Shown: piece by piece, positions 43,419-55,245 of the stretch
Numbering within the stretch: position 1 is the stretch's first letter
Layout: each line of letters begins with the position of its first letter
Source of the DNA: Pseudorhodobacter wandonensis
Lineage (GTDB): Bacteria > Pseudomonadota > Alphaproteobacteria > Rhodobacterales > Rhodobacteraceae
Assembly: GCF_001202035.1 (NCBI RefSeq)
Contig: NZ_LGHT01000031.1
Coordinates: 124,001 to 188,000 of the forward strand
Length of the DNA stretch: 64,000 nucleotides
Reading direction: 5' to 3'
Program-made: the position numbers and the translations under genes
Notes under the pieces: generated by a model
The model's input: only the letters and a program-made list of their open reading frames with translations
What the model was told of the DNA's origin: nothing
The model's database searches: none

Positions 43419-44996
43419 TTACGATTGGTCGCGATAGCTGATTCCCTTGGTATCATAGCCCATTTCGGCCTTTTCGCGCCGCACGATCAGGCGGTTCAGC
43501 GCGTTCACATAGGCCCGCACCGATGCCACAATCGTATCTGTATCGGCCGATTGACCCGTAGAAATGTTGCCATCCTCTTCCAAACGCACCGAAACGGTCG
43601 CCTGCGCATCCGTGCCTTCGGTCACCGCCTGCACCTGATACAGCTGCAAACGCGCCTTATGCGGGTACAGCATTTTCACCGCGTTAAAGGCCGCATCCAC
43701 TGGCCCGTCACCCGTGGCATCAATCGAATGGTCCACGCCTTCGATCGACAGCGTCAGCTCGGCCTCTTGCGGGCCATCGGTGCCGCAGACCACGCGCAGG
43801 CGTTTTACTTGCAACGTGTCATGCGCCGCAGCCGTCGCACTATCATGGATCAACGCGATCAGATCGTCGTCAAACACTTCTTTCTTGCGGTCGGCCAGCG
43901 CCTTGAACCGCACAAAGGCATCGTTCAACTGGTTGTCGGCCATGTCATAGCCCAGATCTTTCAGCTTGGCCCGCAGCGCAGCCCGCCCCGAATGCTTGCC
44001 CAAAGGCAAAGACGTGCCCGACAGGCCCACATCTTCGGGGCGCATCACCTCAAAGGTCTCGCGGTTTTTCAGCATGCCGTCCTGATGAATACCGCTTTCA
44101 TGCGCAAAGGCGTTCTTGCCAACAATCGCCTTGTTGAACTGCACGGCAAAGCCCGAAACCGTGGCCACGCGGCGGCTGATCGCCATGATTTTCGTGGTGT
44201 CCACGCCGGTGCGGTAGGGCATGATGTCATTGCGCACTTTCAGCGCCATCACCACCTCTTCCAGCGCCGTGTTGCCCGCGCGTTCGCCCAAGCCGTTGAT
44301 CGTGCACTCAATCTGCCGCGCGCCAGCCTCAACTGCGGCCAGCGAGTTGGCGGTCGCCATGCCCAGATCGTTGTGGCAATGCGTGGCGAAAATGATGTTA
44401 TCCGCCCCCGGCACACGCTCCAGCAACATGCGGATCAGATCGGCACTTTCGCGCGGCGCGGTATAGCCCACCGTGTCGGGGATGTTGATCGTGGTCGCCC
44501 CGGCCTTGATCGCAATTTCAACCGTGCGGCACAGGTAATCATGCTCGGTCCGCGTTGCATCCATTGGCGACCACTGCACATTGTCGCACAGGTTGCGCGC
44601 ATGGGTCACGGTTTCATGGATACGCTCGGCCATCTGGTCCATGGTCAGGTTCGGAATGGCGCGGTGCAGCGGCGAGGTGCCGATAAACGTATGAATACGC
44701 GGGCGTTTTGCGTGTTTCACGGCTTCCCAGCAGCGGTCAATATCTTTGAAATTCGCCCGCGCCAAACCGCAAATCTGTGCCGATTTCGCCTGCCGTGCAA
44801 TTTCGGACACCGCCGCAAAATCGCCCTCGGACGCAATCGGAAACCCTGCCTCGATAATATCCACGCCCATTTCGTCCAGACTGGCCGCAATCTCCAGCTT
44901 TTCGTCATGGGTCATTGTCGCACCCGGGCTTTGCTCGCCATCGCGCAGCGTGGTGTCAAAAATCAGAACACGGGGTTGCGTGCTTTTGTCAGTCAT
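43419..44996 (-). CDS. leuA: 2-isopropylmalate synthase
   Basis: A 525-residue first enzyme of leucine synthesis. The N-terminal FDTTLRDGEQSPGATM motif, HCHNDLGMATANS metal-binding motif and GERAGNTALEEVV lie in the TIM barrel. The C-terminal part (about 400-510) is the leucine-binding regulatory domain (LYQVQAVTEGTDAQATVSV). So the enzyme itself should be feedback inhibited. Upstream lies a leader peptide with a leucine codon cluster, indicating attenuation control. The gene ends before a strong terminator. Confidence 0.95.
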   Translation of the reverse strand: MTDKSTQPRVLIFDTTLRDGEQSPGATMTHDEKLEIAASLDEMGVDIIEAGFPIASEGDFAAVSEIARQAKSAQICGLARANFKDIDRCWEAVKHAKRPRIHTFIGTSPLHRAIPNLTMDQMAERIHETVTHARNLCDNVQWSPMDATRTEHDYLCRTVEIAIKAGATTINIPDTVGYTAPRESADLIRMLLERVPGADNIIFATHCHNDLGMATANSLAAVEAGARQIECTINGLGERAGNTALEEVVMALKVRNDIMPYRTGVDTTKIMAISRRVATVSGFAVQFNKAIVGKNAFAHESGIHQDGMLKNRETFEVMRPEDVGLSGTSLPLGKHSGRAALRAKLKDLGYDMADNQLNDAFVRFKALADRKKEVFDDDLIALIHDSATAAAHDTLQVKRLRVVCGTDGPQEAELTLSIEGVDHSIDATGDGPVDAAFNAVKMLYPHKARLQLYQVQAVTEGTDAQATVSVRLEEDGNISTGQSADTDTIVASVRAYVNALNRLIVRREKAEMGYDTKGISYRDQS

Positions 44997-45019
44997 TTGA
45001 AAATCTCTCTGAAAGTTCC

Positions 45020-45093
45020 GTTAGCCTTTGCGTTCCGGGCGCTTGTCACCTCTGAGCGGTCGCACCCGAAGGCACGCTCAACGGAGGCTAAGA
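45020..45093 (-). promoter_or_regulatory. Leucine attenuator region of leuA (candidate)
   Basis: The minus-strand RNA between leader peptide and leuA can form competing pairs. TTAGCCT inside the leucine-codon run pairs with AGGCTAA about 60 bases on, while GAGCG with CGCTC forms an alternative hairpin around a TTCG loop (GTGCC/GGTGC). Such mutually exclusive pairing next to leucine codons is the layout of ribosome-dependent attenuation. No clear T-run terminator was found, so the exact mechanism (termination or masking of the leuA start) is open. Confidence 0.55.
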
Positions 45094-45164
45094 AGGAGAA
45101 GCGCACAGGAAAGAGGGGCGCAAGGCGCCTTGTGGGTCGTGGATATGATCGTTTCCTGTACCAT
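45078..45164 (-). CDS. leuA leader peptide with leucine codon cluster
   Basis: A 28-codon minus-strand ORF upstream of leuA. Its end reads Ala-Leu-Leu-Leu-Leu-Ser-Leu-Arg-stop (CTT CTC CTT CTT AGC CTC CGT TGA), with another Leu codon four residues earlier. The stop lies 81 bases before the leuA ATG. No ribosome-binding site precedes the ATG. Instead a TATAGT -10-like hexamer ends seven bases upstream, so the transcript may start at or next to the ATG (leaderless), as described for the trp leader of rhizobia. Recognised by codon content and position, not by similarity. Confidence 0.72.
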   Translation of the reverse strand: MVQETIISTTHKAPCAPLSCALLLLSLR

Positions 45165-45295
45165 GGGGGCGACTATACCCAAGCTTTTGCGAATGAAAAC
45201 CCTAAAATGCGGGTGCCTGCGCGTTTTCACCTGCGCTTTGGTCTGGTCACCGCCGCGCATCGCCCTAGGTCGCAGTTTGGCAAAGGGAGGGGATT

Positions 45296-45961
45296 ATGGC
45301 AAAAGCATTGGTTGTCGGCGCATCAGGCGGCATTGGCGCGGCATTGGTTGGCGCGCTTTCCGCCGAGGGGCATCAGGTCACGCCTTTGTCACGCAGCACG
45401 GATGGCCTGGACATCACAGATGAGGCCAGCGTTGCCGCGTGCATGGCGCGTCTGCAAGGCCCGTTTGATACGGTGTTCATCGCCACGGGCGCTTTGGAAA
45501 TCGGTCCGCATTCGCCTGAAAAATCCTTGCGGGCAGTTACCGCCGCCGGTTTGCTTGCGCAGTTTCAAACCAACGCAATAGGGCCGATGCTGGTTCTGAA
45601 ACACCTTATCCCGCATTTGCCACGTGACAGGCTTGTACGGGTGGGCATCTTGTCGGCGCGGGTTGGGTCAATCGGCGACAACGGTTTGGGCGGCTGGTAT
45701 TCTTACCGCAGCGCCAAGGCCGCGCTGAACCAACTGGTCCACACCGCCGCGATAGAGCTGTCGCGCAGTCACAAACAGGCCGTTCTGGCCCTGCTGCATC
45801 CCGGAACCGTGGAAACCAGCTTTACAGCCAAATACGCGGGCCATCACCCGACTGTCCCACCCGAGGCGGCGGCGCAAAACCTGCTTGCCGTGCTGTCTGC
45901 CCTTGGCCCCGCACAATCGGGCGGGTTTTATGATTGGGCAGGCAAGCCCGTGCCGTGGTAA
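45296..45961 (+). CDS. SDR family oxidoreductase (C-factor-like)
   Basis: A 221-residue short-chain dehydrogenase. The cofactor motif GASGGIG is at residues 8-14, a catalytic Ser lies in the LSARVGS segment and the YRSAK tetrad near residue 139-143. The short length and the HPGTVETSFTAKY stretch resemble the CsgA/C-factor-like group. It has GGGAGGGG six bases before its ATG. Divergent from the leuA leader, so 45165-45295 carries promoters for both. The substrate is unknown. Confidence 0.85.
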   Translation: MAKALVVGASGGIGAALVGALSAEGHQVTPLSRSTDGLDITDEASVAACMARLQGPFDTVFIATGALEIGPHSPEKSLRAVTAAGLLAQFQTNAIGPMLVLKHLIPHLPRDRLVRVGILSARVGSIGDNGLGGWYSYRSAKAALNQLVHTAAIELSRSHKQAVLALLHPGTVETSFTAKYAGHHPTVPPEAAAQNLLAVLSALGPAQSGGFYDWAGKPVPW

Positions 45962-54980: not shown

Positions 54981-55057
54981 GTCGGTTTCCGTATCTGTGC
55001 GGTCGGTTTGGTTTTCGGGCTTGCCACGTGGGGGGCAGGTCGGCTAGGTATTTGCCA

Positions 55058-55245
55058 TCAGGATCGGGAGAATCCGGTCTGGGCGCAAGCCCTGTTCTGG
55101 TGCCGAAGGAGCAACCGCCCCGGTAAACTCTCAGGCAAAAGGACCGGTTCTGGTGGTGGACTCTGGAGAGTGGTGTTTTTGCGAACACCCGCCGAAGGGA
55201 TAACGATCTCAGGCGCCCTTTGGTGGGCAAGGACAGAGGGGGCAT
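55058..55245 (+). ncRNA. Tandem glycine riboswitch upstream of gcvT
   Basis: Two successive glycine aptamers. The first (about 55061-55150) reads GGGAGAATCCGG ... GCCGAAGGAGCAACCGCC ... AAACTCTCAGGCAAAAGGACC. The second (about 55157-55245) reads GGACTCTGGAGAG ... CGCCGAAGGGATAACGATCTCAGGCGC ... GGGCAAGGACAGAGG. Both contain the GCCGAAGG and TCTCAGGC hallmarks of the gcvT RNA class. It lies 65 bases before the gcvT ATG and should switch the operon on when glycine is abundant. Confidence 0.93.

Follow-up and report, generated by a model that had tools for sequence, protein, structure and literature searches.

The window (the whole stretch of DNA analysed here, 64,000 nucleotides) contains leuA, the gene for 2-isopropylmalate synthase, at 43419-44996 on the minus strand, identified by TIGR00973 (669 bits) and NF002087 (847 bits), both above their cut-offs. 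The nearest relatives of this leuA that were found come from two Pseudorhodobacter loci (L001 and L002), which are 96 and 95% identical to it. A short-chain dehydrogenase gene (PF00106) lies divergent from the leader of leuA at 45296-45961 (+), and a glycine riboswitch (RF00504, 63.5 bits) is located at 55055-55156 (+).

All parts of the leuA leader described below are on the minus strand. A 28-codon upstream open reading frame (uORF) occupies 45164-45078, with its ATG starting at 45164 and its stop codon TGA at 45080-45078, and ends 81 nt 5' of the leuA ATG at 44996, exactly where the initial annotation had placed it. It encodes the peptide MVQETIISTTHKAPCAPLSCALLLLSLR by direct reading, and both its Leu codons and its frame are conserved. 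Four consecutive Leu codons (CTT CTC CTT CTT; 45090-45101), which are conserved and form the proposed stall site, encode residues 22-25, and together with the Leu at residue 27 they give the C-terminal end LLLLSLR. The -10 box TATAGT (45172-45177) ends 7 nt before the uORF ATG, a spacing (7-8 nt) that is conserved, and no Shine-Dalgarno-like word longer than 3 bases occurs just upstream of this ATG; both points had been noted before and can be read directly from the DNA. A -35-like hexamer TTTTCA (45194-45199) lies 16 nt upstream of the -10 box and is a consensus match only. Taken together, the two hexamers make a promoter candidate with 9 of 12 consensus matches, the one such site in the region (0.3 expected in shuffles).

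Three helices can be drawn between the Leu codons and leuA. In P0 the Leu codons are base-paired to a stretch upstream of leuA: the 5' arm TTAGCCT (45091-45085), which covers the Leu-Ser-Leu codons, pairs with AGGCTAA (45027-45021), 24 nt 5' of the leuA ATG, and this helix was assessed by partner-swap tests. P1 is a hairpin holding the uORF stop, in which the 5' arm CCGTTGAGCG (45075-45084, containing the TGA) pairs with CGCTCAGAGG (45049-45058); it is known from the alignment of relatives, and in the window a single mismatch interrupts it, between 45082 and 45051. The pseudoknot PK joins TTCGGGTGC (45062-45070), within the P1 loop, to GCGCCCGGA (45034-45042) downstream. GGTG (45066-45063) of the PK 5' arm can instead pair with TGCC (45074-45071) to form an alternative hairpin. 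The best anti-Shine-Dalgarno site of leuA, CAGAGAGA (45004-45011; -15 to -8), is outside P0. The initial annotation had presented TTAGCCT/AGGCTAA and GAGCG (45079-45075)/CGCTC (45058-45054) as alternative pairings; both exist, yet they nest inside a single pseudoknotted fold and do not exclude each other, and the full P1 and the pseudoknot are additions of the present analysis.

The leader of the window folds mildly better than shuffled sequences (z -1.62; 13 of 200 shuffles fold equally well), which is unremarkable by itself, and the case therefore rests on comparison with relatives. We gathered 80 LeuA loci without regard to their leaders, one of which (L053) is truncated. A script reported a uORF with a stem in 69 of the 80; L063, L067, L070 and L072 were removed as false, and L018 (misassigned leuA start) and L064 (shifted stop codon) were also left out, so that the test set comprises 63 loci and the window (64 in total; 50 Rhodobacterales-like and 14 other). 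Further elements were found later, by covariance model in L010, L012 and L032 and by eye, where the stop was shifted or missed, in L055, L056, L069 and L071. By these means (script, covariance model, and some by eye), the element was found in 72 of 79 untruncated leuA upstream regions; the seven loci in which it was not seen are five Pelagibacteraceae (L063, L067, L068, L072 and L073), L050 and L070. A second set of 60 loci, one per genus, was hand-picked from the best 150 matches of covariance model R1 in the order scan (see below); two of them are leaders already present in the first set, and one, with a long tail, was left out of the swap test.

Leu is found at codons -7, -6, -5 and -4 before the stop in 42, 48, 47 and 50 of the 50 Rhodobacterales-like leaders (window included), and all four CTN codons are used at -7 to -5. 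CTN means Leu regardless of its third base; despite this degeneracy, the three-base periodicity and the frame speak for coding. Pairing does not account for the Leu codons at -7 and -6, because these are mostly outside P0. A run of Leu codons is also present in the 60 leaders of the second set, where Leu counts are biased because the selecting model R1 includes these codons. The leucine leader peptide suggested in the initial annotation, which conservation of the Leu codons in relatives was to decide, is thus strongly supported.

The start of the uORF is conserved as well. An ATG follows a -10-like box by 6-8 nt in 36 of 50 leaders, and all 36 of these ATGs share the reading frame of the Leu codons. 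Using a more stringent box (TANNNT, with 4 or more of the 6 positions matching), 20 and 10 of the 50 leaders have it 7 or 8 nt before an in-frame ATG, against 3 or fewer at any other distance from 0 to 39. Similarly, the second set (60 leaders from 60 genera; box ending in T or C) yields 31 box-ATG pairs at 7 nt and 17 at 8 nt, with no other distance from 0 to 24 giving more than 8 (in-frame ATGs); the frame count is 49 in frame and 1 out of frame. As far as sequence can tell, this is probably the geometry of a leaderless message, and the earlier proposal that transcription starts at the ATG, with promoter spacing and frame both conserved, is probably right. In addition, 25 of 48 leaders carry the word CATAT some 15 nt downstream of the uORF ATG (45147-45143 in the window), and it looks like a nucleotide signal, as it stands in another frame in the window. 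In the Caulobacteraceae loci L055, L064 and L069, the uORF stop is further downstream than in Rhodobacterales, with the Leu codons and P1 kept (by eye).

In most leaders, P1 consists of CCUCUGAGCG paired with CGCUCAGAGG, and the uORF stop is in the 5' arm. Alignment A1 combines the window with 44 Rhodobacterales-like loci out of 49, namely those in which no more than 115 nt separate the stop codon from leuA; in these 45 sequences 98% of the P1 cells are paired, and 85.3% of the PK cells, with alignment slippage in the latter. For the alternative hairpin in the P1 loop (TGCC/GGCG), 93.3% of the cells are paired. Alignment A2, with 37 chosen loci across Alphaproteobacteria and without the window, gives 95.9% paired cells for P1, and 6 of its 10 pairs changed on both sides. 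Paired cells, double-change cells and covariation score of P1 and PK in A1 beat all 500 shuffles; the number of further pair types barely beat them (52/500), and the tally of doubly changed base pairs failed to do so (67/500).

The 3' arms of P0 and PK align poorly, and a partner-swap test between species was therefore used for these two helices. With statistics that ignore the kinship of the sequences, the 50 leaders score 16.64 for P0 with their own partner and 13.06 with swapped partners (z 9.9; 0/5000 permutations), and 20.20 and 17.33 for PK (z 7.1; 0/5000), both still at 0/5000 when the row of the window is omitted. The second set (59 of the 60 loci) gives z 7.4 for P0 and z 6.8 for PK, both 0/5000. 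For the 14 other alphaproteobacterial leaders, P0 passes the test (2/2000) and PK is unsupported by it (607/2000). The P0 3' arm ends at a median of 19 nt before the leuA start codon in the first set (35 helices) and 18 nt in the second (43 helices); about 19 nt before a start codon is roughly the upstream edge of an initiating ribosome. AGGA, AAGG or GGAG is contained in this arm in 24 of 50 leaders.

Covariance model R1 has 62 positions and was built without the window; it covers the Leu codons and P1, and leaves out the promoter and the P0 and PK 3' arms. It finds a single site at E ≤ 10 in the genome of the window, which is the leuA leader (5.7e-8). Using Rfam release 15, no gathering match was found at this leader (at E ≤ 5 only a sub-threshold CRISPR-repeat match, E 0.091, 20.2 of 37 bits), and no Rfam match was found in five related loci. 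With strict filters that lose weak matches, R1 matches 185 of 196 genomes of the order (taken as Rhodobacterales; one genome with two matches), 87 of 289 genomes of the class (86 of the 87 preceding a LeuA relative), and 54 of 299 genomes of the phylum, all 54 in the class, the share of non-class genomes among the 299 not being given. Most of the missed genomes of the order (10 of 11) are in one genus, perhaps Paracoccus, in whose leaders (L021, L023, L026 and L190) P1 is different and R1 scores weakly, though at the right place.

LeuA was found at E ≤ 1e-120 in 137 of the 289 genomes of the class, 79 of which have an R1 match, and each of these 79 matches lies 49-414 nt upstream of leuA in the same orientation. 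When 52 of the remaining 60 leuA places were scanned without filters, 12 more matches appeared at E ≤ 0.02 (12 of 12 on the gene strand), and 40 places were left without one. Eight R1 matches occur without LeuA at E ≤ 1e-120: three precede LeuA fragments, four (L126, L128, L129 and L130) precede a LeuA relative of 24-28% identity, and one (G266/L131), before no LeuA, is probably false. TIGR00970 was scanned in L126 and L128, and the downstream gene there is the other type of isopropylmalate synthase (811 and 813 bits; cut-off 697). By eye, the uORFs of L126, L128 and L129 end in RLTRP before the stop. In L010 (element at 994-1050), L012 (element at 1029-1084) and L032 (element at 993-1051), the element and leuA are separated by a small gene, a cupin in L010 (PF07883, scanned) and alike by eye in the other two, so that in these loci the element would act on a two-gene unit. 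Leu-run uORFs were also seen by eye before leuA of Sinorhizobium meliloti pSymB (L194), whose leader R1 matches weakly (E 0.24), and of Cupriavidus metallidurans (L195), at whose leader R1 has no match; they suggest a still wider spread of leucine leaders.

We propose that the transcript begins at the uORF ATG or right beside it, as spacing and frame suggest, so that the uORF would be translated without a Shine-Dalgarno site. When charged Leu-tRNA is ample, ribosomes would pass the Leu codons to the UGA and then leave, after which P0, P1 (around the stop codon) and PK would close and jointly repress leuA expression. When Leu-tRNA is short, a ribosome would stall on the Leu codons and mask the 5' strand of P0, keeping the region ahead of leuA open and letting leuA be expressed. 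The ribosome is the likely sensor because Leu codons, frame and promoter are all kept, and uORF translation is probably what detects charged leucine tRNA. The likeliest output, as yet unproven, is leuA translation rather than transcription; the stall and its direction we infer.

The expected effect of a stall was modelled with ViennaRNA, which does not include the pseudoknot. A stalled ribosome raises the openness of the P0 arm from 0.17 to 0.54, partly by construction (45 leaders; a rise in 40 of 45), and that of the -20 to -1 region barely, from 0.56 to 0.60, and leaves the start codon unchanged. A ribosome at the stop codon opens the P0 arm as much as the stall does. In the window, the arm opens when a ribosome stalls at -4 or sits at the stop, and not when it stalls at -7 or -6. 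Simple Shine-Dalgarno sequestration was tried as an explanation and rejected, the energy model giving this idea weak support. The P0 3' arm overlaps the best anti-Shine-Dalgarno site in only 13 of 50 leaders. As for the leuA leader peptide of Streptomyces coelicolor, mutations had some effect that is inconsistent with classical attenuation (Craster 1999, via the passages on this work in PMC1262725), and the same passages also state that leucine-codon mutations leave regulation uninfluenced. These mutants, the median of 19 nt between the P0 3' arm and the start codon, the overlap in 13 of 50 leaders, the modelling results, the lack of support for PK in the 14 other leaders, the tally of 67/500 for P1 and PK and the missing leader of the Streptomyces copy L191 (see below) are counted against the preferred mechanism.

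Other explanations of the leader were weighed against the same data. The comparison with trp-type leaders in the initial annotation implied classical transcription attenuation, with a stalled ribosome toggling between an antiterminator and an intrinsic terminator. A leader peptide with end-product codons and an alternative hairpin would suit it, and the cysS leader of Rhodobacterales is of that kind according to the section of PMC8632094 that treats it. However, a U-rich run (T at least 5 of 8 within 12 nt after P1) was found in 1 of 50 leaders (L045) and in 0 of 60 of the second set, TTTTT between P1 and leuA in 0 of 50, and none of the terminator-like sites from a simple scan of the window follows P1; moreover, P0 and P1 are nested and not exclusive. 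This part of the initial annotation is not borne out, and attenuation of this type appears very improbable. Leucine-dependent Rho termination in the untranslated stretch between uORF and leuA, where the fold and the uORF ribosome would set the access of Rho, is a serious rival because the modelled opening at -20 to -1 is small and the output uncertain. A conserved uORF and a leader lacking an intrinsic terminator fit it, and Rho has been proposed for terminator-less cys leaders (PMC1262725), but from leader to leader the P0 3' arm sits at a similar short distance from the leuA start, pointing to the ribosome-binding region, and we hold Rho to be unlikely here, if far from negligible.

The compact pseudoknot might also bind a regulatory protein or a small molecule, the uORF being incidental, and the S. 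coelicolor codon mutants, unlike classical attenuation in the account that PMC1262725 gives of them, lean the same way. Against this, codons -7 to -5 stay Leu while their third bases vary, and frame and leaderless promoter are preserved too, all of which speaks for translation; the candidate protein of 2005 was stated to lack close homologues outside Actinobacteria (PMC1262725), yet the element is also in Alphaproteobacteria; we find such a binding role improbable. A chance uORF with incidental complementarity would agree with the merely mild z of the fold in the window, but it is refuted by conservation (element in 72 of 79 loci, R1 in 185 of 196 genomes of the order, swap tests at 0/5000), and its likelihood is practically nil: recurrence in relatives puts the uORF, the Leu run and the pairings beyond chance at the level of sequence.

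Among known systems, the closest is the LEU element of Actinobacteria, which has a Leu-run uORF, a pseudoknot, a base stem of Leu codons and Shine-Dalgarno box, and an alternative hairpin (Seliverstov et al. 2005, PMC1262725). It is described only from Actinobacteria in that paper, whose authors set attenuation aside and favoured a regulatory protein. The element described here shares with it the site before leuA, the Leu-run uORF, the pseudoknot, the base stem with Leu codons and the alternative hairpin inside the stem, and neither is a classical attenuator. In Rhodobacterales, however, the P1 5' arm contains the stop codon, and the distance from the end of the P0 3' arm to the start codon has the median of 19 nt given above, whereas it is 8 and 5 nt in two of the four actinobacterial leaders that were examined. 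These come from five of ten listed records of actinobacterial leuA regions (Nocardia, Nonomuraea, Microbacterium, Tsukamurella and the Streptomyces copy). With anchors set by eye and without a shuffle control, P1 (11-12 pairs) and PK (5-7 pairs) were found in 4 of the 5, and no such leader was found in the leuA region of the Streptomyces copy L191. P0 joins the Leu codons to the segment ending 8 nt (Nonomuraea) and 5 nt (Microbacterium) before the start codon; the best P0 partner overlaps the PK arm in Nocardia and ends 22 nt away in Tsukamurella. R1, built from alphaproteobacterial sequences only, matches the leaders of Nonomuraea (E 0.0011) and Microbacterium (E 0.0015) and, weakly, Nocardia (0.85), and two of the five are unmatched.

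Common ancestry of the alphaproteobacterial and actinobacterial elements is plausible, the alternative being convergence. With moderate confidence, we regard the leader in the window as an alphaproteobacterial variant of the LEU element that would respond to leucine, sense it by ribosome stalling, and lower or raise leuA expression. It is called a variant rather than a plain LEU member because its base stem does not generally include the Shine-Dalgarno site. No report of the LEU element in Alphaproteobacteria was found among the papers listed in the literature search, and an earlier report is possible. A wider reading, which we offer tentatively as possible rather than probable, is that one ancient leucine switch is common to Alphaproteobacteria and Actinobacteria and stands before two types of isopropylmalate synthase, where a stalled leaderless ribosome would open a pseudoknotted leader and control leuA translation without a terminator. 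The mechanism of the LEU element has been open since 2005, and the alphaproteobacterial set adds hundreds of copies with covariation. The kept Leu codons, frame and leaderless promoter indicate the ribosome as sensor, and the question can be tested directly in easy laboratory bacteria. Nearly all searched Rhodobacterales, an abundant marine group, would gain a candidate leucine-controlled leader that has no Rfam family.

Several other leaders are comparable. LeuL1 of Streptomyces lividans (MRFGLLLLSCRGEGL) is leaderless and has no typical Rho-independent terminator in the description given in the relevant part of PMC8079986; it resembles the present leader in both respects and in its Leu run followed by Ser. 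The leuA leader peptides of Corynebacterium have four consecutive Leu, as stated in excerpts of PMC4046766 and PMC5784534. LeuL1 and the Corynebacterium leaders differ from the present one in belonging to another phylum, and their mechanism is likewise unproven. The uORFC-8-2 motif before cysS is likewise from Rhodobacterales and has tandem regulatory codons in a uORF before the matching gene; the model of this motif closes with a U run that is interpreted as an intrinsic terminator, and a pseudoknot is not described in the section of PMC8632094 on this motif. Finally, trpL/rnTrpL of Sinorhizobium meliloti is a transcription attenuator (PMC10117765), whereas the leuA leader has no terminator; the two share a leaderless uORF with regulatory codons in an alphaproteobacterium.
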